This document shows, piece by piece, positions 9,001-24,400 of a stretch of DNA of 46,505 nt. The stretch lies in NCBI GenBank assembly GCA_021268355.1, contig JAJETY010000007.1:1-46505 (forward strand), given 5' to 3'. This stretch comes from Candidatus Nitrosopumilus sp. GTDB lineage: Archaea; Thermoproteota; Nitrososphaeria; Nitrososphaerales; Nitrosopumilaceae. The number at the start of each line of letters is the position of its first letter. The first letter of the stretch is position 1. Position numbers and translations under genes: made by a program. The notes below the pieces were generated by a model. The model did not search any database and was not told where the DNA came from. It worked only from the letters and a program-made list of their open reading frames with translations.

Positions 9001-9424
9001 CATGTTCAACTAATTTTTGTGTAGAGAAATTATGTAAGATACATGCATTTGACTTTGCCATAACTGGAACATCTCCAATATGAACAAATCTGGATTCAAG
9101 AATTTTTCCATCTTCAACAACACTTGCCTCCATCATTACAGGGGCAGAATAAGAAACGTTTCTCAATCTTGCTTCTGCAGGTGTAATATGAGTAATGGAG
9201 CCATCAAGTTCCATCATTCTTGGTTGTTGCAGTTTAACTTTACCTAGTTGAATCTTGTAAGGATATTCTGCGTTTTCAATATCAATTTGACCGACTTCGT
9301 TGATAATACTTTGTAATCCTCTTTCTAAAAATTCATCAAATGAGTTTAGGTGTTGACGGGCAATACCTTCTCGCTTCAAGATATCTTGAATTACTGGCCA
9401 ACGTTTTGTTGAAGGATCTGCCAT
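6077..9424 (-). CDS. rpoB: DNA-directed RNA polymerase subunit B (unsplit)
   Basis: This is the second-largest polymerase subunit, 1115 residues, in one piece (some archaea split it into B' and B''). Recognisable blocks include the lobe/fork region ('RRIQSPLSRTQPNFEARDLH'), the 'ETPEGSNCGLVKNLAL' motif, the hybrid-binding segment ('GQNCVVAVLPFDGYNIEDA'), 'GDKFASRHGQKG' and a C-terminal zinc ribbon (C-x2-C ... C-x2-C, near residues 1055-1075). The ATG at 9424 directly follows the rpoH stop codon. It lies between rpoH and rpoA in the conserved archaeal order H-B-A. Confidence 0.98.
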   Translation of the reverse strand: MADPSTKRWPVIQDILKREGIARQHLNSFDEFLERGLQSIINEVGQIDIENAEYPYKIQLGKVKLQQPRMMELDGSITHITPAEARLRNVSYSAPVMMEASVVEDGKILESRFVHIGDVPVMAKSNACILHNFSTQKLVEHGEDPNDPGGYFIINGSERVIVGLEDLSYNKIIVDRETVGGNIVHKAKVYSSIVGYRAKLELVMKNDGLIVARIPGSPVDIPVITLMRALGLESDREIAAAVSLVDELQDELEGSFEKAGDVPTAKDAIVYISKRIAPGMLEEFQIKRAETLLDWGLLPHLGKHPENRKEKAQFLGEAACKLLELKLDWIKPDDKDHYGNKVIKFAGQMLADLFRTAFRNLVRDMKYQLERSGQKRGINAVAAAIRPGIISDKLNNAIATGNWGRGRVGVTQLLDRTNYLSTISHLRRIQSPLSRTQPNFEARDLHATHFGRICPSETPEGSNCGLVKNLALSGIISVNVPSEEIVEKLYDLGTVHFFDAKEDLKKDGARIFVDGRLIGYYKDGEQLAESLRDLRRNSKIHPHVGVSFHKSEIEGSTRRLYVNCNAGRVLRPLIIIKDGKPLLTTDLLDKISKKLISWTDLLRMGVLEMIDANEEENCYVTLDEKDTKKHTHLEVFPPAILGAGASIIPYPEHNQSPRNTYESAMAKQSLGFSTPMMNTSTYVRQHFMLYPQVPIVNTKAMKLLGLEDRPAGQNCVVAVLPFDGYNIEDAIVLSKASVDRGLGRTFFFRIYDAEAKQYPGGMRDTFEIPNAEDNIRGYKGERAYRLLEEDGVVAAESPVKGGDILIGKTSPPRFMEEYREFESSGPYRRDTSIGVRPSETGVVDTVVMTQSNEGGKMYKIRARDMRIPEIGDKFASRHGQKGVLGILAKAEDLPYTASGMSPDVLINPHAFPSRMTVGMMMESICGKSAALRGARFDGSAFVGEKMDEVREVMDAHGFEYSGKEIMYDGRTGKSFPVEVFIGVVYYQKLHHMVADKIHARARGQVQMLTKQPTEGRARGGGLRFGEMERDCLIAYGASMILKDRLLDESDKSDIFVCERCGLVAYHDVKQRKYVCRVCGDKAKVSSVSVAYAFKLLLQEMQSLNVAPRLLIKEKL

Positions 9425-9676
9425 CTAAACTTCCACCACGTATCTGTAATAGAGACTTTCACCTGCAGTTGGACTTTTTCTTGTGATCTTGATCATATCA
9501 CCAGGTTTTACACCGAGTCCCAAAATTGCAGGATCGTTAACAAAGATTAATGGTAATTCAGTTGGTTTACAATTGTATTTTTTTAAAACATCTTCAGCTT
9601 CTTGTTTTGAAATAATTTCATGTGTTGGAACATAGATGTGATCAGGTACAAGGATTTGGTTTTTCTTAGTTGCCAA
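9425..9676 (-). CDS. rpoH: DNA-directed RNA polymerase subunit H
   Basis: This 83-residue protein is the archaeal RpoH, equivalent to the C-terminal domain of eukaryotic Rpb5. The signature 'VPTHEIISKQEAEDVLKKY' and the C-terminal 'GDMIKITRKSPTAGESLYYR' are typical. It is the first gene of the polymerase operon. The start is TTG at 9676, supported by a perfect GGAGGT ribosome-binding site at 9684-9689 with 7 bases spacing; an ATG in between is followed at once by a stop. The TATA element at 9751-9764 implies a leader of about 50 bases, which fits the use of a Shine-Dalgarno here, in contrast to most genes in the window. Confidence 0.97.
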   Translation of the reverse strand: MATKKNQILVPDHIYVPTHEIISKQEAEDVLKKYNCKPTELPLIFVNDPAILGLGVKPGDMIKITRKSPTAGESLYYRYVVEV

Positions 9677-9683
9677 TTACATA

Positions 9684-9689
9684 ACCTCC
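9684..9689 (-). promoter_or_regulatory. Shine-Dalgarno site of rpoH
   Basis: GGAGGT on the minus strand, 7 bases before a TTG codon. It fixes the non-ATG start of rpoH. Confidence 0.8.
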
Positions 9690-9750
9690 ACGTCGAACAT
9701 AAGATGTAACAGTAATGAATGCACACAAACTGTCAAAACCTCACGTTCAG

Positions 9751-9764
9751 GTTAATATATATCT
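9751..9764 (-). promoter_or_regulatory. TATA box of the rpoH-rpoB-rpoA-lsm operon
   Basis: agatatatattaac on the minus strand is an archaeal TATA element. Transcription would start near 9735, leaving a leader of roughly 50-60 bases before rpoH. No other promoter is evident within the operon. Confidence 0.6.
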
Positions 9765-9824
9765 AATCTGAAATTCGTCAAGCAAATAGTGATTTTTCTA
9801 TTTTGTCAATTAATCTTTTCACAA

Positions 9825-9835
9825 CCTTAAATAGG
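9825..9835 (+). promoter_or_regulatory. TATA box of the first PEFG surface gene
   Basis: ccttaaatagg is centred 27 bases before the ATG at 9857. This supports that ATG and not the in-frame TTG further upstream, and implies a leaderless mRNA. Confidence 0.6.
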
Positions 9836-9856
9836 ATTAATTCAGGTGCAAAAACA

Positions 9857-10699
9857 ATGAAATCACAATTGATGGTGTTAGCATTATCAGCAATTCTAGT
9901 TGCAGGTATTGGTATGGCACCAGCATTTGGACAAATACAAAATTCGATTGTTGTTACTACAGATAAAACAGCCTATTCAGAGGGCCAAGTTGTTACAGTA
10001 ACAGGCGAAGTCAGAGATCTATATGCAGGAACTCCTGTAAGTCTCATTGTAAAAGCTCCTAATGGAAACATGGTCTCAATTGCACAACTTACAGTTGGAG
10101 CAGACAAGAAATTCAGCACTGAAATCACTGCTGGAGGTTCATTGATGAGAGCTCAGGGAACTTATACAATTACCGTTCAATATGGTAATGATAATAGATC
10201 TGCTACAACATCCTTTGAGTTTGGCGGATCTACACAAGTAGAGAAACCAACAGGTAGTATGACTTCTGAAGTAAGCGATACAACCGTTTCAGTCCAAGGT
10301 TCAGCTGATTTAATAGGATATGAGATCACAGGTGCAAAATTACTTGGAGTCATTCCTGATGTGGATGCAAATTCACTAATTATCTCAATTGATGCCATGG
10401 AAGATGGTTCAATCACTTTAACAATCCCTAGATCAGTATTAGATGCTACAATCAATGGTGCAGATGATGACTTTTTCGTCCTAGTTGACGGAGAAGAGGT
10501 AGACTTTGATGAAAAATCAACATCAACAGACAGAACACTCACCATAGCATTCCCAGCAGGGGCTGAAGAGATTGAAATAATCGGTACCTTTGTAGTCCCA
10601 GAGTTTGGTACAATTGCAGCTATGATTCTAGCAGTAGCAATTATCTCAATAATTGCAGTTTCTGCAAAATCAAGACTTAGCATTATGCCAAGAATCTAA
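9857..10699 (+). CDS. PEFG-CTERM surface protein, paralog 1
   Basis: The product has 280 residues from the ATG at 9857. It has a signal peptide (MKSQLMVLALSAILVAGIGM, then APAFGQ). An Ig/macroglobulin-like unit spans about residues 27-120 ('SEGQVVTVTGEV', 'YTITVQYG'). A second conserved unit ends in 'VLVDGEEVDFD ... EIEIIGTF'. The C-terminal signal is the motif VPEFGTIAAM, a hydrophobic helix and a basic tail (KSRLSIMPRI). This tripartite ending is the PEFG-type C-terminal signal known from thaumarchaea, thought to be processed by an archaeosortase-like enzyme for surface anchoring; no sortase gene is in the window. It is the first of four tandem paralogs. The exact function is unknown, probably cell envelope. 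Confidence 0.88.
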   Translation: MKSQLMVLALSAILVAGIGMAPAFGQIQNSIVVTTDKTAYSEGQVVTVTGEVRDLYAGTPVSLIVKAPNGNMVSIAQLTVGADKKFSTEITAGGSLMRAQGTYTITVQYGNDNRSATTSFEFGGSTQVEKPTGSMTSEVSDTTVSVQGSADLIGYEITGAKLLGVIPDVDANSLIISIDAMEDGSITLTIPRSVLDATINGADDDFFVLVDGEEVDFDEKSTSTDRTLTIAFPAGAEEIEIIGTFVVPEFGTIAAMILAVAIISIIAVSAKSRLSIMPRI

Positions 10700-10712
10700 A
10701 ATTTCATCTTTT
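10581..10712 (+). repeat. Near-identical 3'-end repeat, copy 1
   Basis: The DNA encoding the PEFG anchor, the stop codon and the start of the downstream spacer is nearly identical to copies at 11520-11646 and 12446-12580. Copies 1 and 3 differ at two silent positions over about 120 bases up to the stop codon. Confidence 0.85.
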
Positions 10713-10716
10713 TTCT

Positions 10717-10737
10717 CTTTTTAAATATACATAAATA
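10717..10737 (+). promoter_or_regulatory. T-rich terminator and TATA promoter between PEFG genes 1 and 2
   Basis: A T-rich run (about 10709-10722) probably terminates gene 1 and runs straight into the TATA element tttttaaatatac. The following acataaata is shared with the spacer at 11638-11657. The next gene starts 30-40 bases downstream, so a short leader is expected. Confidence 0.5.
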
Positions 10738-10762
10738 CCAAGGCTACTTGGGGAAAATTAGA

Positions 10763-11620
10763 ATGAATTTTAAACGTTCTACAACATCTATGGCAATAGC
10801 CCTTTTGGCAGTGTCATTAATTTCAGTGACCTCAATTCAACAAGATGCATTTGCTCAAACACAAGGAATGACCATTACTGCAATGGCAGACAGCGGTTCT
10901 AAAACAATTACCCTAACAGGTAAAACAGTTTCAGGATACACTGATGTTTCATTTACTGTAAAGTCTCCAAGTGGAAATAATGTAGTTGCTGTTGGTCAAA
11001 CAACACCAGATGCTGAAGGAATGTTTGGTGCAGAATTCAAAATTGGTCCAACATGGACTGAAGATGGATTCTATGAAATCAAAGCACAACAAGGCAACAC
11101 AGCATTGTATACAATGGTAGTTCTTGTTGAAGTAAATGATGGAATGGCAGAAAAAACTTCTGTAACTGAATCCAATTACTCTTCAGATGTGTTTGAACCA
11201 ATCAAACCAAATGTTACAAGAGATGCAGGAATTGAAATTAGTACCGCCGAAACCGAAATGGGATCCGATACAATTGTGGTTACTGGAAGTACAGATAGAG
11301 TAAGTGCAGACATCACATTAACCGTAACTGCTCCAAATGGAAATGTAGTATCAATTGATCAAGTATCACCAATGCTTAACGGAGAGTTTACAGCAACCAT
11401 CAAAACAGGTGGACCACTATGGACACAAGATGGTATTTACACTGTTACAGCACAACAATTTAACGATCCAAAATATACTGCTTCATCTGAAGTAGATATT
11501 CAAGACGGTATGGTAGTGCCAGAATTCGGTACAATTGCAGCTATGATTCTAGCAGTAGCAATTATCTCAATAATTGCAGTTTCTGCAAAATCAAGACTTA
11601 GCATTATACCAAGATACTAA
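10763..11620 (+). CDS. PEFG-CTERM surface protein, paralog 2
   Basis: The product has 285 residues from the ATG at 10763; an upstream in-frame TTG would place charged residues before the leader and is less likely. A signal peptide (RSTTSMAIALLAVSLISV, then the QDAFAQ cleavage region) is followed by two copies of the Ig-like unit (about residues 25-125 and 145-245). The second ends in 'WTQDGIYTVTAQQF'. The protein ends with the motif VPEFGTIAAM, a hydrophobic helix and KSRLSI. Unlike paralogs 1, 3 and 4 it lacks the 'LVDGEE' domain before the anchor and has a duplicated first domain, so domains have been shuffled around a fixed C-terminus. Predicted to be anchored on the cell surface. Confidence 0.85.
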   Translation: MNFKRSTTSMAIALLAVSLISVTSIQQDAFAQTQGMTITAMADSGSKTITLTGKTVSGYTDVSFTVKSPSGNNVVAVGQTTPDAEGMFGAEFKIGPTWTEDGFYEIKAQQGNTALYTMVVLVEVNDGMAEKTSVTESNYSSDVFEPIKPNVTRDAGIEISTAETEMGSDTIVVTGSTDRVSADITLTVTAPNGNVVSIDQVSPMLNGEFTATIKTGGPLWTQDGIYTVTAQQFNDPKYTASSEVDIQDGMVVPEFGTIAAMILAVAIISIIAVSAKSRLSIIPRY

Positions 11621-11646
11621 AATCACATCTTTTTTCATTTTTTAAA
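11520..11646 (+). repeat. Near-identical 3'-end repeat, copy 2
   Basis: This copy is identical to copy 1 over about 80 bases starting at the ggtacaattgcag block (11528 here, 10607 in copy 1). After the stop codon it matches copy 3 over a 27-base T-rich spacer. Confidence 0.85.
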
Positions 11647-11657
11647 TATACATAAAT
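11638..11657 (+). promoter_or_regulatory. TATA promoter of PEFG gene 3 after T-rich terminator
   Basis: The T-rich stretch 11628-11643 leads into tttaaatatacataaata, nearly the same sequence as upstream of gene 2. With transcription starting about 26 bases after the TATA centre, a leader of about 10 bases precedes the ATG at 11683. Confidence 0.5.
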
Positions 11658-11682
11658 AGAGACAGGTTCAATTCGCAACAAG

Positions 11683-12564
11683 ATGAACAACCGTACGTCG
11701 TTCGCGCTACTAGCCGTTTTGACTGCAGTCGGTACTTTAACCGTGTCATCAGCATATGCTCAATATCAAGAGGCATGTGTTGGATGTTCCATGGAAGATG
11801 CAAGAGCAACAGCAAATAACATGTTGCTTAATGATATTCCAATATCTGTTTGGACAGATAGAACAAGTTATGGACATAATGACATGATTATGGTAATGGG
11901 GCAAGTAGCAAATGTAGCATCTGGATTTCCAGTTACAATAACTGTTGTGAGTCCTCTAAACTCTATTGTCACAGTTGACCAAATCACTGTAGCAAATGAT
12001 GGTAGTTTTGAGACATCATTAAACACAGCAGGTGCAATGTGGAAATACGACGGTACCTACACCATTAAGGCAAACTATGGCAGTGCTGATAAAAAGAACA
12101 CTGTTAAAGTTCAATTAACTGGTGGAGTTGTACATACTCCAACCTATGAAACACCAACAACGTCCAAACAATGTGGTGCAAAGGAAATTACAGCAAGTGG
12201 TCAATGTGTACCATTTACTATTTTAGGTGGTAAAGTAACAAGTGCAACTCTCAATACAAATGATAACTCAATTGTTATCAACATCAGCGCAACTGATGAT
12301 GGAACATTAACAGTAACCCCATCAAAAACAGTCCAAGACGGTATCTTCATGGTATTAGTTGACGGTGAAGAATGGGATGATGTTGAGATTGTTGCAAACA
12401 AAGTAACAGTAATGTTCCCAGCAGGAACTGAACAAATTGAAATTATCGGTACCTTTGTAGTCCCAGAGTTTGGCACAATTGCAGCCATGATTCTAGCAGT
12501 AGCAATTATCTCAATAATTGCAGTTTCTGCAAAATCAAGACTTAGCATTATGCCAAGAATCTAA
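11683..12564 (+). CDS. PEFG-CTERM surface protein, paralog 3 (cysteine-containing)
   Basis: The product has 293 residues with an ATG start at 11683. The signal peptide is MNNRTSFALLAVLTAVGTLT, followed by VSSAYAQ. Just after cleavage lies a CVGC motif, and later two more cysteines (KQCGAKEITASGQCVPF); the other PEFG paralogs have none, so disulfides or metal binding are possible here. One Ig-like unit (ends 'YTIKANYG') and the 'LVDGEEWDD ... QIEIIGTF' domain precede the anchor VPEFGTIAAM. The last 120 bases are almost identical to paralog 1. It is transcribed from its own TATA element. Confidence 0.87.
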   Translation: MNNRTSFALLAVLTAVGTLTVSSAYAQYQEACVGCSMEDARATANNMLLNDIPISVWTDRTSYGHNDMIMVMGQVANVASGFPVTITVVSPLNSIVTVDQITVANDGSFETSLNTAGAMWKYDGTYTIKANYGSADKKNTVKVQLTGGVVHTPTYETPTTSKQCGAKEITASGQCVPFTILGGKVTSATLNTNDNSIVINISATDDGTLTVTPSKTVQDGIFMVLVDGEEWDDVEIVANKVTVMFPAGTEQIEIIGTFVVPEFGTIAAMILAVAIISIIAVSAKSRLSIMPRI

Positions 12565-12580
12565 AATCACATCTTTTTTC
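12446..12580 (+). repeat. Near-identical 3'-end repeat, copy 3
   Basis: Same block as copies 1 and 2: anchor coding region, stop codon and the first part of the T-rich spacer. The neighbouring upstream coding sequence is clearly diverged, so the identity is local. Confidence 0.85.
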
Positions 12581-12603
12581 ATTTTTTCATTTTTAATAGT
12601 AAA

Positions 12604-12614
12604 AGAAATATACA
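12604..12614 (+). promoter_or_regulatory. TATA box of PEFG gene 4
   Basis: agaaatatac lies about 26 bases before the GTG at 12634, following T-runs at 12571-12593. It supports a leaderless mRNA and the GTG start. Confidence 0.5.
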
Positions 12615-12633
12615 AACATGACCTTCAAAGTTT

Positions 12634-13437
12634 GTGAATTCTAGAATTTTTTACGGTATACTTTCTTTATTGATAATTTCTTCAGTTCCAGCTTTTGCCC
12701 AAGAGTCATTAATTTCAGTTCAGACAGATGACAAGAATTATGACGAAGGCGACACCATAGTAATATCTGGATTAGTCACAACAGTTGTAGGGCAAACACC
12801 AGTAACACTTCAATTATTCAGCGAAGGAAATCTAGTAGACATAGCACAAATCACAGTAGCACAAGATGGAACTTATTCTCACACAGTCATTGCAGAAGGT
12901 CCGCTTTGGAACAAAGCAGGCGATTATCTAGTTAGAGTTCTTTACGGAGAAGGGAACATAGCAGAATCTCAGTTCAGCTATACTCCAAAATCAGAAATTG
13001 TTGAAACCACGACTAATTTTGAAGTAGATGCAGGAGGCCAAGGAACTTTTGATGTAGAATATACAATCAAGGGAGGCACAGTCAAAAACATGATTGTGGA
13101 TCCGGACATTTTTGCATTAATAGTACAAATTGATTCAACTGATGAAGGAAAAATCGATTTAGATTTACCAAGAGAGTTCATTGGAGCTGAAAAACAAGAT
13201 GGAAAAGATGACACATTTATCATTTTGATTGATGGTGTTGAAGTACCATATCAAGAATCAGTTGTGCTTTCAGATTCAAGAGTAATCACAATTAACTTTG
13301 AACAAGGAGATTCAGATATTGAAATAATTGGCACATACATTGTTCCAGAATTTGGAACGATTGCAATGATGGTTCTATTAGTTGGAATTATGGCAACAGT
13401 AATCCTAACAAAAAATAGAATCCAAATTAAAATTTAA
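12634..13437 (+). CDS. PEFG-CTERM surface protein, paralog 4 (diverged)
   Basis: The product has 267 residues with a GTG start; the nearby ATG at 12618 is in another frame and hits a stop. A signal peptide (RIFYGILSLLIISSVPAFA, then QE) is followed by an Ig-like unit ('DEGDTIVISGLV', 'DYLVRVLYG'), the second conserved domain ('LIDGVEVPYQ', 'DIEIIGTY') and the motif VPEFGTIAMM, a hydrophobic helix and the tail KNRIQIKI. The domain plan equals paralogs 1 and 3, but the DNA of the anchor is not part of the near-identical repeat, so it escaped the homogenisation. Its stop lies 2 bases from the convergent cysteine desulfurase gene. Confidence 0.86.
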   Translation: MNSRIFYGILSLLIISSVPAFAQESLISVQTDDKNYDEGDTIVISGLVTTVVGQTPVTLQLFSEGNLVDIAQITVAQDGTYSHTVIAEGPLWNKAGDYLVRVLYGEGNIAESQFSYTPKSEIVETTTNFEVDAGGQGTFDVEYTIKGGTVKNMIVDPDIFALIVQIDSTDEGKIDLDLPREFIGAEKQDGKDDTFIILIDGVEVPYQESVVLSDSRVITINFEQGDSDIEIIGTYIVPEFGTIAMMVLLVGIMATVILTKNRIQIKI

Positions 13438-13439
13438 TT

Positions 13440-14600
13440 TTAAGAGAAAGAATATTTTTCCTTAAAGGGAGAAACGGCTCTCAACTCATCTATGACTTTT
13501 TTAAGAATTTCAACTGTCTGTTCAATTTCCTTTTGGTCATTAAACATTCCAGTTGTCAATCTTAGTGAACCTGTTATTTGCTCGTGGGAAAATCCCATTG
13601 CTTCCAAAACATGAGATGCCTTTTGAGTGTGAACGGAACATGCTGAACCAGTTGAAGCTGCAATTCCATATTCATCAAGCTTGATTATTAGATCTTCACC
13701 ATGCACACCGAGAAAAGTGAAATGTGCATTATTTGGCAAATGAAATTCGGGATGACCGTTAACAGTTACTTTAGAAATTTCATTTGACACTTTTTCAACC
13801 AAAAAGTCTCGGGTTTTTTTCATATGAGAAATATTCTCATTTAGATTATTTTTTGCGATATCGCATGCTTTTCCAAAACCAACGATATTTGCCACGTTTT
13901 CAGTCCCAGAACGCAAGCCATGTTCTTGTCCGCCACCCAAAATCATAGGATTAAGGTCAACGCCTTTTTTGATATACAATGCGCCAATGCCTTTTGGACC
14001 ATATAGTTTGTGAGAGGATATGGATAGGAAATCAACACCCAATCCATGAACGTCAATTGGCACTTTGCCCACAGCCTGTACGGCATCAGTATGAAAGAGA
14101 ATACCTCGGTCATGACAGAGTTTAGCGATTTCTGAAATAGGTTGGATTGTGCCAACTTCATTATTTCCAAACATGATTGAAACAATTCGGGTTTGATCAG
14201 ACAAGTGACTTTTAAGATCAGATATTCTAATCATTCCAAATTTATCAACTGGAAGATAAATGACCTCAAATCCTTCTTGGGATAATTTTTTACATGGTTC
14301 TAGAATTGCATCATGTTCAATGGAAGATGTAATAATTTTTCCAGAATTGTGTTTCGTAGCAATTCCTCTTAATGCAGTATTGTTTGACTCTGTACCTCCA
14401 GAGGTGATAAAAATTTCAGAAGGATCAGCGTTAATTAGAGATGCAATTTGCTTTCTTGCTTTTTCAATTGCTTTACGAGATAATCTACCGTATCTGTGAA
14501 TTGAAGATGGATTTCCGTATTGTTCTTTGAGGAATGGAATCATTGATTCTAATACATCACTGTGAATTTGGGTTGATGCAGCATTATCGAGATAAATCAA
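13440..14600 (-). CDS. iscS: Cysteine desulfurase (NifS/IscS family)
   Basis: This is a 386-residue PLP enzyme that converts cysteine to alanine and hands on a persulfide. The PLP lysine is K198 in SSHKLYGPKG, and the pocket includes the SGGTESNN loop and H96. The catalytic cysteine is C321 in STGSACSVHTQKASHVLEAMG, on a long mobile loop as in group I enzymes. The start is TTG at 14600; it overlaps the larE stop by 4 bases (TTGA). It is therefore the last gene of a larC-larE-iscS operon, which suggests that it supplies sulfur to LarE; a general role in Fe-S assembly or tRNA thiolation is also possible. Confidence 0.93.
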   Translation of the reverse strand: MIYLDNAASTQIHSDVLESMIPFLKEQYGNPSSIHRYGRLSRKAIEKARKQIASLINADPSEIFITSGGTESNNTALRGIATKHNSGKIITSSIEHDAILEPCKKLSQEGFEVIYLPVDKFGMIRISDLKSHLSDQTRIVSIMFGNNEVGTIQPISEIAKLCHDRGILFHTDAVQAVGKVPIDVHGLGVDFLSISSHKLYGPKGIGALYIKKGVDLNPMILGGGQEHGLRSGTENVANIVGFGKACDIAKNNLNENISHMKKTRDFLVEKVSNEISKVTVNGHPEFHLPNNAHFTFLGVHGEDLIIKLDEYGIAASTGSACSVHTQKASHVLEAMGFSHEQITGSLRLTTGMFNDQKEIEQTVEILKKVIDELRAVSPFKEKYSFS

Positions 14601-15394
14601 TCTGCAATCACGTTAATTTTTCCCGGTTTATAGCCTTCTGGATCAATTTCAACAGAAGTAAATCCAATCATCTTTAATTTTTCTGTGATTTTATCTAATA
14701 CAACATTATCAAATAGAGGAATGTCATTTTTTTCTACTTCGATTTTTGCAGCACCATTAAGATCACGAACTCTAACTTGTTTGATTTTTGTTATTTGTTT
14801 TACAACGGTTTCTCCAAATTCAATTCTGGCTAGTTTCTCAGCAGTGACTCTTTGACCCCATGGAATTCTAGAAGCTAAACATGAATTTGAAGGCCTGTCA
14901 TGCACAGACAAACCCACGGATTTTGCAATATCTCTAATTTGTGATTTTGAAATATTTGTTTCAACTAGTGGGCTTTTGATTCCATATTGACGTAATGCTT
15001 CAATTCCAGGCCTATAGTCACCTAAATCATCTAAATTTGTCCCATCGACAATTACATCAACAGTGTGTTCTTTTGCCAATTTTAACAAGTGGTCGCCTAA
15101 TTCAACCCTACAGTGAAAACATCGATTCGAGTCATTTTTTACAAATTCTTCATTTTCAAGTTCATCATAGTCTAAGAGAAGTTGCCTAATACCTATCTCA
15201 GAACATACTTGTTTTGCGGTTTGAAGTTCTTCCTCAGACAATGTTTTGTAATCAGCAGTTACTGCAATAGCAGAATCACCTAATTTTTGAAATGCGGCAT
15301 ATGCAACCAAAGCGCTATCGACACCGCCAGATAAAGCAATCATAACTTTGTTTTTATCAGCAAACCAATTTACTAGTTCATTTAATTTGGTCAT
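14597..15394 (-). CDS. larE: LarE-type sulfur insertase (three-cysteine, probably [4Fe-4S])
   Basis: The product has 265 residues and is an ATP-pyrophosphatase-fold enzyme that puts sulfur into the nickel-pincer nucleotide precursor. The PP-loop SGGVDS is at residues 22-27. Cysteines C92 and C95 (RCFHCR) and C172 (SNSCLASR) match in order and spacing the C108, C111 and C180 ligands reported for Thermotoga maritima LarE, which binds a [4Fe-4S] cluster. The sacrificial Lactobacillus plantarum enzyme has a single cysteine. The ATG at 15394 overlaps the larC stop (ATGA), and the cysteine desulfurase gene overlaps downstream. Assignment to the catalytic [4Fe-4S] class is inferred from the cysteine pattern. 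Confidence 0.92.
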   Translation of the reverse strand: MTKLNELVNWFADKNKVMIALSGGVDSALVAYAAFQKLGDSAIAVTADYKTLSEEELQTAKQVCSEIGIRQLLLDYDELENEEFVKNDSNRCFHCRVELGDHLLKLAKEHTVDVIVDGTNLDDLGDYRPGIEALRQYGIKSPLVETNISKSQIRDIAKSVGLSVHDRPSNSCLASRIPWGQRVTAEKLARIEFGETVVKQITKIKQVRVRDLNGAAKIEVEKNDIPLFDNVVLDKITEKLKMIGFTSVEIDPEGYKPGKINVIAD

Positions 15395-16614
15395 TTACTA
15401 TCCTGTTTTTCAATTTCTTTTCGAAGTAATGATTCTGTTTCTTTAAGGGATTTGTCTATTGTGTTTGAAATATCCTTAAGATCATCAAACTCTATTTTAA
15501 AATCAGTTTTTCCTTTGAATGTTGATTTTTTGTATCTAACATCAAAGGATTTTCCATCAAGTGACAATGAAATTTTTTCATTTGTTCTTGGCACAATAAA
15601 TCGATTTGATTCAGATATCCTGACTCCCAATGTACCCGTTTCAAGAACTAAAGTATCCACTATTGCATCAATAGTTTGATCATCACATATTACAGAAACC
15701 AAATTGGTAGGTCTGCCTTTTTTTGTGATTCCATGATAAATAGAAACGTCTCTTGCACCCTTTTGCATAATCTTTTCAATAAGATTTCCAAGAATCTCAC
15801 CAGAAATATCATCAACATTGGTTTCAAGAATTTTTACTGAATCATTTTCTAAATTATTTGCAGAACCTCTTACCAATTTCAAGACATTTGAAAAATTTTC
15901 AAAATCCTTTTGCCCCGCACCATAGCCAATAGAATTAATTTTCATTGGAGGGTAGTAATCCATGCAAGTATTTGTCAAATTTGCCAAAATGCATGCTCCA
16001 GTTGGAGTGGTCAACTCTTCCCCAGCATCATTTCCCTTTATTTTCAGATAAGAGTTTTTGAAAATCTCAAGGATTGCGCTTGCAGGATTAGACATTGTCC
16101 CATGCGAAAAAGTCACGCTGCCACCGCCAACAGACACAGGCATACAGATAATTTTTTCATCAAACAATCCCAAATCTTCCAGAGCAATTGTAATTCCAAC
16201 AATGTCAACAAGAGTATCAATACTTGATGCCTCATGAAAATGGACTGAATCCTCAGGAACCCCATGAATTTTGGATTCAGAGGTAATAAGCGAATTAATA
16301 CAAGATTCAGCAAATGCCCTAGCTTTTTCAGGAAGTTCTAATGATTGTGTGGAATCATTGATTGCCTTTTTTATTTCAGAACCTTTCTTTTCATGAGAAT
16401 GTTCATCAATTTCTAAAATTAGTTGAAGAGCTTCAATTCCTCTTTTTTTGGTTTTTTGGAAATCAATATTTTTGATTGTAGAATCTGAGAAAAATTTTTC
16501 AGATTTTTTGATTCCTTCAATTACTTTGTTCTTATCAGCTCCCAAATCAATCAGAGAAGATAGAAGCATGTCTCCAGATATTCCAGCAATTTGAGGATCA
16601 ATTACCAAAACCAT
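15391..16614 (-). CDS. larC: LarC, nickel insertion protein for the nickel-pincer cofactor
   Basis: The product has 407 residues of the LarC family, the CTP-dependent nickel insertase (cyclometallase) of the pathway. The N-terminus MVLVIDPQIAGISGDMLLSS, the segment VHFHEASSIDTLVDIVG and the core 'ELTTPTGACIL' are diagnostic. The C-terminal half ('ETNVDDISGEILG') carries the domain that L. plantarum makes by programmed frameshifting (larC1/larC2); here it is one continuous frame. It is the first gene of a larC-larE-iscS operon. The ATG at 16614 has a TATA-like element at 16636-16645 about 27 bases upstream on the same strand. Confidence 0.94.
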   Translation of the reverse strand: MVLVIDPQIAGISGDMLLSSLIDLGADKNKVIEGIKKSEKFFSDSTIKNIDFQKTKKRGIEALQLILEIDEHSHEKKGSEIKKAINDSTQSLELPEKARAFAESCINSLITSESKIHGVPEDSVHFHEASSIDTLVDIVGITIALEDLGLFDEKIICMPVSVGGGSVTFSHGTMSNPASAILEIFKNSYLKIKGNDAGEELTTPTGACILANLTNTCMDYYPPMKINSIGYGAGQKDFENFSNVLKLVRGSANNLENDSVKILETNVDDISGEILGNLIEKIMQKGARDVSIYHGITKKGRPTNLVSVICDDQTIDAIVDTLVLETGTLGVRISESNRFIVPRTNEKISLSLDGKSFDVRYKKSTFKGKTDFKIEFDDLKDISNTIDKSLKETESLLRKEIEKQDSK

Positions 16615-16635
16615 TGATTGAAAATTATCAAAAAT

Positions 16636-16645
16636 GCATATAAAT
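16636..16645 (-). promoter_or_regulatory. TATA box of the larC-larE-iscS operon
   Basis: atttatatgc on the minus strand, centred 27 bases from the larC ATG. The mdh promoter lies about 36 bases away in the other direction, so the two divergent units have neighbouring promoters. Confidence 0.5.
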
Positions 16646-16671
16646 TCGTCTGATCGGCTCGAGATTTCATT

Positions 16672-16683
16672 AGATTTAATTAT
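16672..16683 (+). promoter_or_regulatory. TATA-like element of mdh
   Basis: agatttaattat is centred about 28 bases before the ATG at 16705, fitting a leaderless mRNA for the mdh-larB pair. Confidence 0.45.
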
Positions 16684-16704
16684 TGAAAATTAACAGTGAT
16701 TTTC

Positions 16705-17619
16705 ATGATTACCATTATTGGCTCAGGTAAAGTAGGCGGAGATGCTGCACTATTTTCAGCATTAAAGAGATTGGATGATCAAATTTTGTTACTAGATGTT
16801 GCTGAAGGTCTCCCTCAGGGTGAAGCTATGGACATTAACCATATGCTTTCAGAACAAGGAATTGATGTAGAAGTGAAAGGTTCCAACAATTTTGAGGATA
16901 TGAAAGGTTCCAACATCGTAGTAGTAGTTGCAGGTTCTGGACGAAAACCAGGAATGACCCGTATGGATCTTTTGAAGATTAACGCATCAATTGTAAAAAG
17001 TGTAGTAGAAAATGTCAAAAAATATGCTGATGATTCTATGATCATCCCAGTAACAAATCCATTAGATCCAATGGCATACATTACCTACAAGGTTTCAGGA
17101 TTTGACAGAAGTAGAGTTTTCGGCATGGGTGGCATGCTCGATTTATCCAGATTTAGACAATTCATTCATGAAGCAACAGGACATTCACGTGACTCCATAA
17201 GAGCTCTTGTAATTGGAGAGCATGGTGAAAACATGTTACCACTCCCAAGATTTTCATCAGTATCTGGAATCCCACTATCATCATTTCTTCCAAAAGAGAA
17301 GTTGGATGAACTAGTTCAAAATACAAGACAAGTTGCAGCAAAAGTCATTGAACTAAAAGGTGCAACAGTACATGCTCCAGGAAATGCAATTTCAGCAATT
17401 GTTGAATCTGTCGTTAGAGATAGAAAACAAGTAATCCCTGTCGCAACATATCTTGACGGAGAATATGGTCATTCTGATGTCACTATCGGAGTTCCAGCAG
17501 TTATAGGAAAGAAAGGTGTAGAAAAAATTATAGAATTAGATCTAAATGATGAGGAAAAGCAAGTCTTTAACAAAGCAGTTGAGAGTGTTAAAAGTGCAAT
17601 TTCCGGTGTAGAAATCTAA
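16705..17619 (+). CDS. mdh: Malate dehydrogenase (LDH/MDH family, NAD-dependent)
   Basis: The product has 304 residues and interconverts malate and oxaloacetate. The Rossmann glycine motif GSGKVGG is at residues 6-12, and an aspartate (D31) at the end of beta-2 favours NAD over NADP. R80 in the GRKPGMTR loop is the malate-type specificity residue (lactate dehydrogenases carry Gln there). R86 and the catalytic H173 (GEHGEN) are present. The ATG at 16705 is preferred over the in-frame GTG at 16696 because the nucleotide-binding strand begins there. It sits between larC and larB, divergent from the first and 33 bases upstream of the second, so it is probably co-transcribed with larB. A T-run at 17621-17630 might partly terminate between them. 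Confidence 0.94.
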
Positions 17620-17652
17620 GCCTTTTTTTATCCATCAACCCTAAAACCACCA

Positions 17653-18429
17653 TTGGAAACTCATGAAATTTTAAAATCAGTCAAGGAGGGAAAGATTTCA
17701 ATTGGCGAGGCAAAAAAACTTCTATCACTTTATTCAATTGAAGAGATAGAAGGTATTGCAAAAATAGACATTAACAGAAGAAAGAGAAGAGGAATTCCAG
17801 AAATAATTTTTGCAGAGACCAAGGAATTAGATGAAATTAAAAAAATCATAAAAAAAACTTTGGAAAAATCAAATTCAGTTATTGTGTCAAGATTAAAGAA
17901 AACAGATTATCCAAAGATTCTGACTTTTGCAAAGAAATTAAAAGTTAAAGTCAAAGTGGGGAAAAAATCCTCCACACTATTATTATTCAAAGAACCCATC
18001 AAATTTCAGGGCGGAAAAGTCGGCATCTTAACTGCAGGCACTTCAGACATAGGAGTAGCAGAAGAGGCGAGATTGGTATGTGAGGCAATGAATTGTAAAT
18101 GCATTACAAGCTATGATGTAGGAGTTGCTGGAATTCAAAGAATATTTCCAATTTTAAAAGAAATGGTAAAGGAAGATGTAGATTGCATCATCGTTGCTGC
18201 AGGAATGGAAGGGGCACTAGCGACATTAGTTTCAACTCTGGTTGACATACCCATAATCGGAATTCCAACTTCAGTTGGATACGGATATGGGGAAAAAGGA
18301 ATAGCGGCTCTCGCTTCAATGCTTCAGAGTTGCTCATTAGGACTATCTGTTGTAAACATTGACAATGGTATTGCTGCAGGTGGAATTGCAGCAAATATTG
18401 CAAACAGAACAATAAGAAAAAAAGAATAA
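17653..18429 (+). CDS. larB: LarB, nicotinate dinucleotide carboxylase/hydrolase
   Basis: The product has 258 residues. LarB carboxylates C5 of the pyridinium ring of nicotinic acid adenine dinucleotide and cleaves the phosphoanhydride, the first step of nickel-pincer nucleotide synthesis. The C-terminal half is PurE-like: 'VGILTAGTSDIGVAEEARL', 'DVGVAGIQRI', 'AAGMEGALATLV', 'IIGIPTSVGYGYGEKG'. The N-terminal helical part is lysine-rich. No ATG is available in frame; the TTG at 17653 gives METHEILKSVKEGKISIGEA, the usual LarB N-terminus. With larC and larE this completes the cofactor pathway, although no larA-like client enzyme is in the window. Confidence 0.92.
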   Translation: METHEILKSVKEGKISIGEAKKLLSLYSIEEIEGIAKIDINRRKRRGIPEIIFAETKELDEIKKIIKKTLEKSNSVIVSRLKKTDYPKILTFAKKLKVKVKVGKKSSTLLLFKEPIKFQGGKVGILTAGTSDIGVAEEARLVCEAMNCKCITSYDVGVAGIQRIFPILKEMVKEDVDCIIVAAGMEGALATLVSTLVDIPIIGIPTSVGYGYGEKGIAALASMLQSCSLGLSVVNIDNGIAAGGIAANIANRTIRKKE

Positions 18430-18469
18430 GGAAAATTTACAATTTTTGAGGCAAAATAACCTCGTAAAT

Positions 18470-18479
18470 GATATATAAC
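18470..18479 (+). promoter_or_regulatory. TATA box of the radical SAM gene
   Basis: gatatataac is centred 27 bases before the TTG at 18502, which supports that non-ATG start and a leaderless mRNA. Confidence 0.6.
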
Positions 18480-18501
18480 ATAGTTTAACGAAATGTGTTA
18501 G

Positions 18502-20082
18502 TTGGCTGGCAAACGTGTTGTACTTACTGCTGATCGTAGTTTAATGACAAATTACAGAGGAAATTTTCTTTACGGATTTATTGCATGTGGACCATATGAG
18601 GTTCTCCCTGAATGGGTTTTTGATAAAGTATTTTGTCCTTCAGTTGAAACAGACCCTATTACTGGAGAGGCAAAGGTTGCACAAATTGGATTGAGACGAA
18701 TTGAGAGTTCCTTGATTCAAGGCGGCTACAATAGAAATGATGTTTTCATTGGACATCCAGATATGTTACACAAATCAATTGGTCCAGATACCAAAGTTGT
18801 TGGAATCAATGTAATGGATCCATTAGGAATGGCACCAGTAACCACAACAATGTCACCAGAAAAATTGTCATATGTCGCAATGAAATTTAAAAAAATGTGT
18901 GCAAGCATTATCCAACTCAAAAAGAAATATGACTTCAAAGTTGTAGTTGGAGGAAATGGCGCATGGGAATTAGCTAAATCTGACAGAATGAAAATTCACG
19001 GAATAGATACAGTAGTTGTTGGTGAGGCAGATGAGCTGGCAGTTGATTTGTTCCAAGATTTAGAAAAAAATGATGCACCAGAATTAATGCACTGTTTTGT
19101 TAGAAACCTTGAAAATATTCCAGTAATTGAAGGACCTACAATCAATTCCTTAATCGAAGCTATGAGAGGTTGCGGAAGAGGTTGTGACTTTTGTGATGTG
19201 AATAAAAGATCAAAGAAAGATCTTCCTATTGAAAGATTGCAACACGAGGCAAAAACCAATTTAGATTATGGATTTGATTCAATATGGTTACACTCTGATG
19301 AAATGTTACTTTATGGATGTGATAACAGAGACTTTGTTCCAAACAGAGATGCAATTACTGATTTGTGGAAGTCACTAAAAGGATTGGGTGCAAACTTTAT
19401 CGGAACTACACACATGACATTTTCTGCTGTTGCAGCAGATCCAACATTGATGGAACAGATTTCTCACATTAACGGTCAAGATAAATCAGGAAGATGGCTT
19501 GCCACTAACTTAGGAATTGAAACAGTTGCACCAGACATGGTAAAGAAACATCTTGGTGTTAAAACAAGACCATTTTCAACAGAAGAATGGGGAAGTGTAG
19601 TTAGAGAAGGTGCAAAAATTCTTAATGAAAACCATTGGTTCCCTGCTGCCACAATCATCATTGGTTGGCCAGATGAGACACCAGACGACATCCAATACAC
19701 AATCGATATGATGAGTGACTTTAGAGAGATGGACTTTAGAGGATTAGTAGCCCCATTATTGTATCAAGACTTTAGCGAAAAGAATTCAATGCACTTTGGA
19801 AACTTGAATGAAGCACAATTTACACTGTTTTGGAAATGTTGGGAGAATAATCTACGTGTTATCAACGACATTATTCCAATTATCCTAAGAAACAAAACCT
19901 ATGGTCCTCCAATGAAAGTCTTCATGTATGGAATTCTCAAAGCAGGTACTTGGGCAATAATGAGATATCTCAGAGGCCTCTGCAAAGATCTCTTCAATGG
20001 AAGAACTCCAGATGAGATAATTGACAAATATGCTAGAAGCAGATCAGTAACTGCTCCAAGAATTCAAACAAAGAAATTATAG
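18502..20082 (+). CDS. B12-binding-type radical SAM protein
   Basis: The product has 526 residues with a TTG start at 18502 (the ATG at 18493 meets a stop after one codon). The radical SAM cluster motif is C224-x3-C228-x2-C231 (RGCGRGCDFC). The N-terminal ~200 residues form a Rossmann-like region ('TKVVGINVMDPLG', 'VVVGGNGAWELA', 'IDTVVVGEADELAVDLFQDL') of the cobalamin-binding type, although the classical DxHxxG motif is not seen. The region after the cluster has the TIM-barrel features 'SIWLHSDEMLLYG' and 'WFPAATIIIGWPDETPDD'. The family is broadly archaeal. Its substrate is not evident: lipid tailoring (as in tetraether ring synthases), methyl transfer or RNA modification are all open. The gene stands alone and its 3' end overlaps the next gene by 6 bases. 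Confidence 0.85.
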   Translation: MAGKRVVLTADRSLMTNYRGNFLYGFIACGPYEVLPEWVFDKVFCPSVETDPITGEAKVAQIGLRRIESSLIQGGYNRNDVFIGHPDMLHKSIGPDTKVVGINVMDPLGMAPVTTTMSPEKLSYVAMKFKKMCASIIQLKKKYDFKVVVGGNGAWELAKSDRMKIHGIDTVVVGEADELAVDLFQDLEKNDAPELMHCFVRNLENIPVIEGPTINSLIEAMRGCGRGCDFCDVNKRSKKDLPIERLQHEAKTNLDYGFDSIWLHSDEMLLYGCDNRDFVPNRDAITDLWKSLKGLGANFIGTTHMTFSAVAADPTLMEQISHINGQDKSGRWLATNLGIETVAPDMVKKHLGVKTRPFSTEEWGSVVREGAKILNENHWFPAATIIIGWPDETPDDIQYTIDMMSDFREMDFRGLVAPLLYQDFSEKNSMHFGNLNEAQFTLFWKCWENNLRVINDIIPIILRNKTYGPPMKVFMYGILKAGTWAIMRYLRGLCKDLFNGRTPDEIIDKYARSRSVTAPRIQTKKL

Positions 20083-20400
20083 ATTTTCTATTGCAGCATC
20101 TGCAATTGTATTTCTTTTTGGTGTTAAAGAGACAAAGTAAACCTTATCAGCTCTTTCAATATTTTCTACTTTTTTGTATGATTTTGAGGAAACATCAAAT
20201 TCATAGATTCCAGATTCAAGTGAACCTTTGGCATACAACATGAGATATGTTTCGCCAGTGGAAGGACTAAGTGGAATAAACGACATAACATGATCCTTGT
20301 AAGAATTTATTGGAATTGTATTTTTCATTGGAGGTGCTGCGGATGCCAAATACATGAAGAAGTCTTCAATCGACTCGAATTCTTCATACTCTATATGCAT
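20077..20400 (-). CDS. Small conserved protein of unknown function
   Basis: The product has 107 residues, is cytoplasmic (no signal or membrane segment) and acidic at the N-terminus (MHIEYEEFESIEDFFMYLAS). The middle has an alternating pattern suggestive of a beta sheet ('YLMLYAKGSLESGIYEFDV', 'KVYFVSLTPKR'). I do not recognise the family. It ends inside the last 6 bases of the radical SAM gene on the other strand. The ATG at 20400 is the only good start. Confidence 0.65.
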   Translation of the reverse strand: MHIEYEEFESIEDFFMYLASAAPPMKNTIPINSYKDHVMSFIPLSPSTGETYLMLYAKGSLESGIYEFDVSSKSYKKVENIERADKVYFVSLTPKRNTIADAAIENL

Positions 20401-20450
20401 GAAAATAGATAATGTCTTTCAGTATAATAACCTAGAGAAAAACTAAAAGA

Positions 20451-21431
<981 letters not shown>

Positions 21432-21480
21432 TCATGGGTAGTCGGTATTTATGTATTAAATGAAAGAAAAATTGACCAGA

Positions 21481-24400
21481 TTATACTCGAATTATACCTT
21501 TTTTGACCAAGTATTGGATCGATTTTAAAAAGTCTCCTTCAGGTATTTTGTCATCAGCCCACCATCCTGCGGTATTTTTGATCCATTCAGGAACTTCTTT
21601 ATCTAGTAAACTTCGTTCAGAGGGTTCAATGGAAATAATTCCTGTTTCTATGAGATGTTCTATTCCGCCAATAAATTCACCATCAGAGATATCATCTGAA
21701 GACCACCATCGAGCATTGTTTTTGACCCAATCAGGGACATTTTGTGAGACTACATCAAATGAAAGCGTTCCAATGTTTTTTCCATCATATGAAAGAAATA
21801 CAAAATAGGTTCCAGGCAAAGTGTTTGCATGTACAGTAAACATTGAACGATAACCTCCACTACTACTTAGTGATGCGCCAAAATTTTGTTTTGTTCCATC
21901 TGGGCTAGTGAGTTGAATTGATAACGGAATGCCACGTTTATGATTTTCAACACTTCCTGTCAAAATAACTTCTTTTGAAGAACCAACTGTTGGAAGTACA
22001 ACTTTGTCATGACTTAATTTTGCAGGTGTGTCATAAGACACTGAATATTTTGAATCAAGCAAGCTGAAGATATTTGCATTTCCAGAGGCATCACGAGAGT
22101 CATAATATCTTACGTCAAGGCTTCCACCAGAAGTGTAGATTAGTTTTGAGCCAGTTTTATCGCAAATCTGAGAGGGCATTTTGAATACACCTGTAAAAAT
22201 TCCGGTACTACGACCTGTTTCAACAAGTGTAAATCCAGTCGATGCCAAACCACCATGTTCAATTCCATTAACAGTACATCGTTTGTAGCGAACATCTTTG
22301 AGTTTTATTTCCAATAAAATTTCTCCATTTTTTCCAACTGTATCGACATTGACTGAATTTGGATCATTGATCACTTGATAAATCTCAACAGTGTCACTTT
22401 TCAAATTTAGATCAGAGTCACTTAGAGTAATTGTAACAGGTTGTCCAAATCGGAATGTTGTAGAAGTTGTTGAGACTTTTCCTGAATGTGTTGCAACGTC
22501 TGATTTGGTTGAAGTGGTAGTTGTTACACCAACTGAGTCCAAGTCAGCATATGAAATTGAAACACCATCTTCGTCTATCAGTCTGTCAGTAATGATAATT
22601 TTTACTTCATCATCAATGGTTTGGATGGTCTGAATAAAATTGGGATCTAAAATGTTTAATTGATTTGTAACTGCATATTCAAAAGTTCCTTCAAAAACAG
22701 ATGAATTGTCTTGAGTCTCTTCTAATTCAAAACGATAAATGGAATTGTTTACACTTTGATTATTTTCCAATCCAAAAGAAAAGAAATCAAAGACTATGGG
22801 AAGTTTATTAGATTCGCTAGAAACTTTGACAGTGTCAGAATCATCAAAGTCAATTATAAGAAATACACTGCCAGTTTTCCTCTGGATATCTTCCACATCA
22901 ACATCATCAATTCTGATAAATCCTTGGGAGGATGATACATCTCCATTATCAGCAATTACTATCTGAGGAGCAGAGTCACGGTTTCCAAAAGCCAGTGCAA
23001 ATGTAGTACTACTAAAATCGGAAATTTCTAGTTCATTTTCAAATGATCTCAAATCATAGTTTATCCAGTTTGTTCCACTTGTGTTAGATTTTGACGAGTC
23101 GATTAAGGAAGCGGCTAAAGATGAAGCAGAAATGCCCAAATTAATTGAGATCATTTCATAGGACGCATTAGAGACATTAGAAGTATCAATTAGTAAAATA
23201 TCAGAATTTGAATCAGGTACTGAAGAATTAGAATCATCACCTCCAGTCAAAACGGGTGAAGATGAATGAAATTCAACACTGTGTGCATGTTCCAATGTGA
23301 CAGGATTTCCTATAGTGATTGTAGGAATGAGTGCTGAATCCCTAAAAACATCAAGGTGATCTTTGCTTCCGGTGTTAAGATTTTGATCAGAATCATTTAG
23401 CAATACGGTGTACTCTGTTCCAGGTCGTAGTGAATCACCAGTTCCAATTGTTAAAACAGGTTCTCCATCAAAAGATACAGAGGCAGTAGAGAATCCAGTT
23501 ATCACAGATATAGAATCTTGATTGTAAGTGATTTTACCTGTTTGTCCTCTAGGCGCATCATCCAATATACCGATTATTGATTGATCATTATTATCAGAAC
23601 TAGAGAATATTCCAGAATTTGGTTCTTGTTCTGTCAAAGTAACAATTTTAGAAAAAGTTTTTGAAACTCCATCAGAAACTGAAGAAGTGGGCTGATCACT
23701 ATTTGTTTTCAATTTCATTATGTTTCCAAGTGACAAAGACAGTTTTCCATTATCTTCAAATCCTAAATTAGATAGATATGGTGCTAAATCTACCAAGCCA
23801 GCATTTCCATTTGCGTCATTGTTTCCAGAATTATCAAATGCTTGATAGAAAGTTGCCATTGTTGAATCAACATTGAAAGTCCATGAATCTTCGTCAGTAG
23901 GATCCTGATTAAGTTGAATGTCATTTAGAGTTAGAAAAACTTCAGAGTTTTTCGGATACATTTCTCTATCAATGTCTACTGAAATATTTTCTATTTCATC
24001 ATATTCTAGAAATACTTGTTGTGATGCTCCACCAGGATTGTACTGTATTGTAACATCATCAAAGGAATAAAGTTGAATTAATGGCCATGCATCTACATCT
24101 AATCCAATTTGACCAACAGATATGTTGGAATTAGTGTTAATGGATTTTGCATTCCTAACTACATTATTTTGATTATTGGTACTTGTAGGACTGGATGTGC
24201 ATTCTGTAAAGGCAGAATTGCCATTTGTTGAACCAGTAACAGATGCGGGTCGAGGAATTGCAAATCCATCAGTTTCACTAAGAGAGATTCCAAAAATTGA
24301 AGAGGCAGTGTCCCTACTACAAAATTCTCCAAAGTCTAATCCCTTTCCAGCAAGACCCACCGTTGAATCAGCAATTTTTGCCTTGTCAACATTTGCAAAA

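Follow-up and report, generated by a model that had tools for sequence, protein, structure and literature searches.

Described nickel-pincer nucleotide systems and the studied locus

To our knowledge, no enzymes outside the LarA family have been shown to use the nickel-pincer nucleotide (NPN), which LarB, LarE, and LarC make for LarA in Lactiplantibacillus plantarum and for gluconate epimerase in Thermotoga maritima. We analysed a stretch of 46,505 nt (hereafter the window; contig JAJETY010000007.1 of assembly GCA_021268355.1, Candidatus Nitrosopumilus sp., Nitrosopumilaceae) that encodes the same three enzymes with their key residues; gene coordinates are window positions (Table 1). Unlike the two bacterial systems, it has no canonical LarA, carries a cysteine desulfurase gene in the operon, and has a malate dehydrogenase gene (mdh) between larC and larB. 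The LarE of T. maritima is of the same [4Fe-4S] kind with identical numbering of the cluster ligands (Cys92, Cys95, Cys172), the desulfurase genes of this bacterium lie far from larE, and a desulfurase supplied from outside renders its LarE catalytic in vitro (PMC9283937).

Genomes with larBCE and no larA are already published, and the combination is not new in general. It was reported for about 15% of analysed genomes, many of them cyanobacterial, and NPN proteins other than LarA were suggested (mBio 2024, PMC11796402). Haloferax volcanii may hold an enzyme with the cofactor, with biogenesis perhaps via larBCE, according to a review on halophiles (PMC8305020), LarA homologs were counted in 29.5% of archaeal species, and DUF362 was placed in the same Pfam clan as DUF2088/Lar_N (JBC 2024, PMC11770544). 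Cyanobacteria, H. volcanii, and others thus resemble the present locus in having the larBCE pathway and no canonical LarA, and our four control genomes (Synechococcus elongatus, Corynebacterium glutamicum, Methanocaldococcus jannaschii, and H. volcanii) all gave a LarC match and no Lar_N match. C. glutamicum and M. jannaschii lack DUF362 too and pose the same puzzle; S. elongatus and H. volcanii have DUF362, unlike the sampled genomes of f1 (Nitrosopumilaceae, the family of the window) and f47 (presumably Nitrososphaeraceae; other families are given by label). Our samples comprised 181 genomes of the phylum and 111 genomes of the order. Families f1 and f47 are ammonia oxidisers and very abundant in ocean and soil. 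We found no report of larBCE without larA in ammonia-oxidizing archaea in limited searches of the open-licence literature, none of which was aimed at LarX (a LarA-fold protein described below) or at the larE-nifS operon.

A complete gene set for predicted NPN synthesis

Given that the genes are present, keep their linkage and key residues, evolve under purifying selection, and occur without any Lar_N or DUF362 match, we consider it rather likely that the operon makes NPN, that its [4Fe-4S]-type LarE is fed by the NifS-type desulfurase, and that the client lies outside canonical LarA and DUF362. As judged from the named homologs, LarB would carboxylate and hydrolyse nicotinic acid adenine dinucleotide (NaAD) to pyridinium-3,5-biscarboxylic acid mononucleotide (P2CMN), into which LarE, with a [4Fe-4S] cluster on Cys92, Cys95, and Cys172, would insert two sulfurs to give the bisthiocarboxylic acid form (P2TMN). 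NifS would pass cysteine sulfur to LarE, so that LarE could turn over with no sacrificed cysteine, and LarC would insert nickel in a cytidine triphosphate (CTP)-dependent reaction to yield NPN, which would then serve an enzyme that is neither canonical LarA nor DUF362. A more specific proposal, that the NPN of f1 and f47 serves an enzyme whose fold is new to this cofactor and that the co-transcribed NifS is the physiological donor of LarE, is advanced tentatively, as plausible rather than probable. If true, NPN would be a hydride carrier beyond the 2-hydroxyacid racemases.

A first-pass annotation of the sequence had claimed that all three biosynthetic steps are encoded, and this was borne out by curated NCBIfam cut-offs and by the active-site residues on alignment. 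LarB scored 247.5 bits (NF033503, cut-off 175), LarE 264.8 bits (TIGR00268, cut-off 150), and LarC 162.9 bits (TIGR00299, cut-off 90) as well as 107 bits for its LarC2 part (NF052512, cut-off 50). In LarB, Cys227 falls at the position of L. plantarum Cys221, which we take to be the cysteine of covalent catalysis, and is kept in 30/30 homologs from the fetched loci. LarC aligns from residue 9 to residue 392 of 407 with 12bi, a nickel-insertion protein of solved structure (E = 5e-42), and its key residues, aligned with solved LarC, are kept across 41 homologs. In LarE, the PP-loop residues S22, G23, G24, D26, and S27 (SGGxDS) and the three cluster ligands of the CxxC-C motif, as defined in PMC9283937, are present in 31/31 homologs from the fetched loci. 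It matches 8cnz at E = 3.9e-32, and this entry, the [4Fe-4S] LarE of Methanococcus maripaludis (mmLarE), is also the top fold-search match (template modelling score 0.87/0.90) of an AlphaFold model with a mean predicted local distance difference test score of 92.9. By motif and modelled fold, LarE is thus of the [4Fe-4S] type and is predicted to bind the cluster and to turn over catalytically.

LarE belongs to the PP-loop superfamily, whose members thiolate many substrates, and no known client was seen; both would fit an alternative in which the Lar proteins yield a compound akin to NPN but not identical with it, such as a thiolated pyridinium nucleotide that is used nickel-free or attached elsewhere. 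We regard this as quite improbable, given that the proteins of all three steps, nickel insertion included, keep the residues of characterised homologs and that larB and larC are retained or lost as a pair (both in 79, neither in 28, and one alone in 2 + 2 genomes of the order sample).

NPN synthesis from a larC-larE-desulfurase operon, the favoured reading, also fits the conservation of the genes. The ratio of nonsynonymous to synonymous substitution rates (dN/dS) for larB, larC, larE, and nifS was 0.04–0.09 against a relative of the same genus (L051) and 0.04–0.17 against two relatives, indicating purifying selection; in a third comparison larB gave 0.10, and the values for larC, larE, and nifS were saturated. 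The order nifS-larE-larC / mdh-larB recurs in 10/10 f1 loci (window included), one of them without nifS, as do the divergence of larC and mdh and the adjacency of mdh and larB. The low dN/dS and the order kept in f1 loci place the arrangement beyond chance. Named relatives that show larB-mdh / larC-larE-nifS include records of Nitrosopumilus, Nitrosarchaeum, and Nitrosocosmicus; in those of Nitrosopelagicus, larC-larE is not accompanied by nifS, and mdh and larB are present if the contig extends far enough.

A cysteine desulfurase adjoining larE

The operon desulfurase exceeds the cut-off of NF002806 (326.3 vs. 304 bits) and stays below that of the NifS equivalog TIGR03402 (505.8 vs. 530.75 bits). 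Lys198, His96, and Cys321 are present in 26/26 homologs; we take Lys198 to be the pyridoxal-phosphate lysine and Cys321 the catalytic cysteine. Seven Aminotran_5 matches (E values up to 1e-3) were obtained in the genome, the top one of which is SufS (TIGR01979, 604.5 vs. 475.1 bits), and the operon copy is a second desulfurase of NifS/IscS type, distinct from SufS. With SufS encoded separately, NifS looks dedicated to the operon. Adjacency of larE and nifS was found in 9/10 f1, 9/10 f47, 4/4 f41, and 2/2 f42 loci (24/26 in total), and 12 of the 24 adjacent pairs share the four-base overlap, including 9/9 in f1. Among named larE loci nifS is present in 29/50, mostly thaumarchaeal records, and 2 of the 21 others end at larE. 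We propose that NifS is the sulfur donor to LarE; the pairing would lend genomic support to the in vitro model of a desulfurase reloading LarE.

The competing view is that NifS is a general sulfur donor, for tRNA thiolation or Fe-S assembly, and stands in the operon incidentally. It draws on loci that keep larE without an adjoining nifS. G108 (f1) has larE and no NifS copy and retains SufS, and in L100 (f47) nifS is not adjacent; the gene is missing despite DNA to spare from five named thaumarchaeal loci, L125, L126, L127, L140, and L174, four of which are from Nitrosopelagicus. Beyond f1, f47, f41, and f42, larE mostly occurs without nifS: two of four further loci within the order have larE, one of them with nifS adjoining, and three of 11 loci from elsewhere in the phylum have larE, none of them (0/3) with nifS adjoining. 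The nifS-less loci that keep larE imply that NifS is not strictly required. Against a merely general role stand the adjacency and overlap counts in the four families and a SufS that passes its own cut-off, and we therefore hold this view to be unlikely, though a serious contender. The earlier claim that the pathway has its own cysteine desulfurase thus holds, in the sense of a dedicated-looking, non-obligatory partner of LarE.

Distribution across the phylum and the order

LarC was detected in 73 genomes of the phylum sample, LarB in 79, and Lar_N in 53, the latter two counted over their cut-offs. All 28 f1 genomes have both LarC and LarB and none has Lar_N (0/28), at genome sizes of 1.2–1.8 Mb. 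In the order sample, 81 genomes have LarC, 81 have LarB over cut-off, 18 have Lar_N, and 20 have DUF362; among the genomes with LarC, 67 are without Lar_N and 57 have neither Lar_N nor DUF362. Here larB and larC are present in 20/20 f1 and 20/20 f47 genomes, with Lar_N and DUF362 each in 0/40. Family f41 (7 genomes) has LarC in six, LarB in seven, and neither Lar_N nor DUF362; f49 has LarC or LarB in 0/19. Retention of larB and larC (28/28) in small genomes that have no recognisable user of the cofactor suggests that the pathway does something important and unrecognised in these archaea, and the question of what else uses NPN is now tied to a named lineage.

Family f1 was assigned to Nitrosopumilaceae because its LarC is 89–91% identical to that of named records. 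In a midpoint-rooted tree of 41 LarC proteins, f1, f47, f41, and f42 form one group (support 100/100), within which f1, f47, and f42 are each whole and f41 is not resolved; this grouping is as expected from vertical descent from a common ancestor.

Across the phylum sample, LarC is absent from 31 of the 53 genomes in which Lar_N exceeds its cut-off. These have LarA homologs minus the cofactor pathway, and many of them are fragmented assemblies. In a published analysis of logic relationships in a KEGG ortholog table, larC was the most frequent gene and larB the seventh most frequent, and the passages concerned mention Thaumarchaeota solely as an operational taxonomic unit (PMC7194410). This ranking hints that the distribution of larB and larC may follow other genes combinatorially.

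Search for a client enzyme

No larA-like gene had been noted in the window, and this holds: none is among the listed open reading frames (ORFs) of positions 9000–23000, and a Pfam search with Lar_N (PF09861) gave 0 matches in the whole genome, window included. The assembly consists of 73 contigs at 98% completeness, which leaves some room for a canonical larA that is merely missing from it. We rejected this explanation, whose probability we put close to nil, on the absence of Lar_N from all sampled f1 genomes of the phylum sample and all f1 and f47 genomes of the order sample, many of which are single-contig.

DUF362 was rejected as the client here, with 0 matches in the Pfam search of the window's own genome and 0/40 in f1 and f47. 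In other lineages it may be an NPN client. All seven f52 genomes have LarC and DUF362 and no Lar_N, and in G161 (f40), a genome without Lar_N, a DUF362 protein is encoded directly after larB-larC (L060:8402-11699). Family f43, however, has DUF362 in 4/5 genomes without LarC. Among 20 weak or divergent Lar_N matches inspected from other families, the f4 sequences resemble DUF362-ferredoxin proteins, and four from f9, f18, and f39 represent degenerate LarA-like proteins (402–412 aa).

The neighbours of the lar block provided no clear client. The mdh product resembles an ordinary NAD-dependent malate dehydrogenase (NF004863, 386 vs. 283 bits) and its gene lies near larC in further lineages too. 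The radical S-adenosylmethionine (SAM) gene downstream of larB is a lar neighbour in f1 only, in the fetched stretch of 10/10 f1 loci (directly beside larB in six) and of 0/31 others; its B12-binding-type similarity is weak (TIGR04013, 58 bits vs. cut-off 251). A third candidate was a set of electron transfer flavoprotein (ETF) beta and alpha genes and a gene for a flavin adenine dinucleotide (FAD)-dependent oxidoreductase, which stands between mdh and larB in 3/4 f41 loci; the f45 locus has a similar set, placed between larB and mdh. Such sets lie at L101:10663-17341 and L109:3487-9412, and Pfam was run on one f41 locus and the f45 locus. All three were rejected, the last because none of the set occurs in f1 loci. 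The position of mdh between larC and larB and the ETF genes of f41 and f45 may hint at a client that acts in hydroxyacid or organic-acid redox chemistry.

LarX, a divergent LarA-fold protein

A search for LarA-fold proteins across the whole genome, which had been suggested together with the first-pass annotation, found no canonical LarA and one divergent protein outside the window, here called LarX (G000:C55:12563-13645, equal to L194:8564-9646; 360 aa). We know of no name for its family. It was found with a profile (A2) built from the four degenerate LarA-like proteins of f9, f18, and f39 (E = 2.7e-18 in the window's own genome). Over 22 genomes, this profile detected one gene each in 16/16 genomes of f1, f41, and f47, matched 4/4 f9 genomes, two of which had fed the profile, and matched 0/2 f40 genomes. 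In profile searches LarX matched malate racemase Mar2 (6d6z, E = 8.6e-13), lactate racemase (2yjg, E = 7.7e-6), and the LarAH6 malate racemase family of NCBIfam (E = 2.7e-13; 49 bits vs. a cut-off of 500); hhalign aligned it to LarA at 98.8% probability (E = 5.6e-17), and the Pfam LarA_C score was below cut-off (19.7 vs. 25 bits). By these alignments LarX is genuinely homologous to LarA in its C-terminal half, and the similarity of the N-terminal half is weak. Its nearest known relatives in the C-terminal half are the Mar2/LarAH6 malate racemases, from which the LarX of the window's genome differs in being shorter by about 60 aa and in lacking H108, H174, K184, and H200.

In L. plantarum numbering, H108 and H174 are the catalytic histidines, Lys184 is presumably the NPN-tethering residue, and His200 a nickel ligand. 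The LarX of the window's genome has other residues at all four positions. Residues were compared in an alignment of 61 LarX-type rows and nine LarA sequences, of which 16 LarX-type rows were read; the position of the second catalytic histidine (H174) is Asp in most LarX rows and His in 4/4 f9 and 1/10 f47 rows. A wider profile matched 104/111 genomes of the order, in 43/43 genera. Since G249, which has larC, matches solely via its canonical LarA frame, we counted LarX in the other 103 genomes, namely 77/81 with larC and 26/30 without. The 62 LarX places yielded 61 aligned proteins (L227 of G251 gave no ORF), of which 39 from larC-containing and 16 from larC-lacking genomes were compared and those of f9 (4), f18 (1), and f39 (1) were set aside. 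Of the 24 columns conserved in larC-containing rows, 23 are largely retained in larC-lacking rows. The exception is D16, which is acidic in 12/13 larC-containing families (f46 is mixed) and in 1/4 larC-lacking families of the order (Fisher p = 0.022 before any correction for kinship or multiple columns; the difference does not hold after correction for 24 columns).

LarX could itself be the client, binding NPN in a non-canonical way and perhaps transferring hydride in a single direction instead of racemising. Its genuine LarA homology, its presence in 40/40 genomes of f1 and f47, the D16 pattern, and the histidine kept at the H174 position in some rows speak for this role, as does the location of mdh between larC and larB, malate racemase being the closest LarA group. 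The loss of the four residues in the window's own protein, the similar frequency with and without larC, the retention of the other columns in larC-lacking rows, and a gene neighbourhood without lar link (pyrE-like, RimI-like, and ABCE1-like genes, named from sequence starts only) speak against it. LarX is a weak client candidate because of its residue loss and its presence in larC-lacking lineages, and we consider this role improbable. In f1, f41, and f47 the pyrE-like gene adjoins LarX in 15/16 loci; in the remaining locus it is one ORF away.

Of the two options originally given for the absence of larA, a LarA homolog elsewhere or a different client enzyme, the first is correct in that LarX exists elsewhere and fails in that it has lost NPN-binding and catalytic residues, and we favour a different client. 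As to co-occurrence with the pathway, DUF362 is absent from f1 and f47, and LarX is present in both families and about as common in lineages without larB and larC.

Several observations weigh against NPN synthesis with a NifS-fed LarE and a client outside canonical LarA and DUF362. Synthesis of the cofactor is here read from genes and no client was found, either genome-wide or beside the lar block; LarX contradicts a plain absence of LarA-fold proteins; and larE is kept without nifS in G108, L100, and the further thaumarchaeal loci listed above. We also count against this reading the scope of the larE data, which were taken from loci, whereas larB and larC were surveyed genome by genome.

Locus layout and surroundings

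The first-pass annotation described larC, larE, and the desulfurase gene as one operon with four-base overlaps, and the ORF places, strands, and overlaps were confirmed. The two overlaps, of four bases each, read TTGA and ATGA, the TTG start of the desulfurase overlapping the larE stop. It had also described larB and mdh as divergent beside the operon; both are divergent from larC, with the correction that they share one strand. The mdh start is probably ATG at 16705, which gives 304 aa as in most f1 relatives, rather than GTG at 16696, and the larC/mdh intergenic region may act as a divergent promoter.

Table 1. Features of the lar locus in the window
Feature	Position	Strand	Remarks
nifS/iscS-type cysteine desulfurase	13440..14600	-	386 aa, TTG start; ORF and NCBIfam NF002806
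larE, [4Fe-4S]-type sulfur insertase	14597..15394	-	265 aa; PP-loop SGGVDS 22-27, CxxC 92/95, Cys172
larC, nickel-insertion cyclometallase	15391..16614	-	407 aa; LarC1 and LarC2 fused, single frame
larC/mdh intergenic, putative divergent promoter region	16615..16704		90 bases, AT-rich TATA-like stretch 16634-16645
mdh, NAD-type malate dehydrogenase	16705..17619	+	304 aa; ORF as listed begins 16696
larB, NaAD carboxylase/hydrolase	17653..18429	+	258 aa; Cys227
radical-SAM protein, weak B12-binding-type similarity	18502..20082	+	f1-restricted neighbour; not claimed for the pathway

The circadian phase modifier CpmA of Synechococcus is probably a homolog of LarB. CpmA has been assigned to a purine-biosynthesis superfamily (PMC5520375).

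The lar block is flanked by genes for secreted or surface-type proteins. Four paralogs with a C-terminal tail of the VPEFGTIA type precede it (9803–13437) and a related protein follows it (20451–21425), and members of the BLAST cluster of VPEFGTIA-tail proteins occur near the lar block in 10/10 f1 loci. Short-period repeats of 12, 18, and 24 bases at 20907–21029, in a secreted-protein gene, encode Pro-Glu/Pro-Thr repeats.

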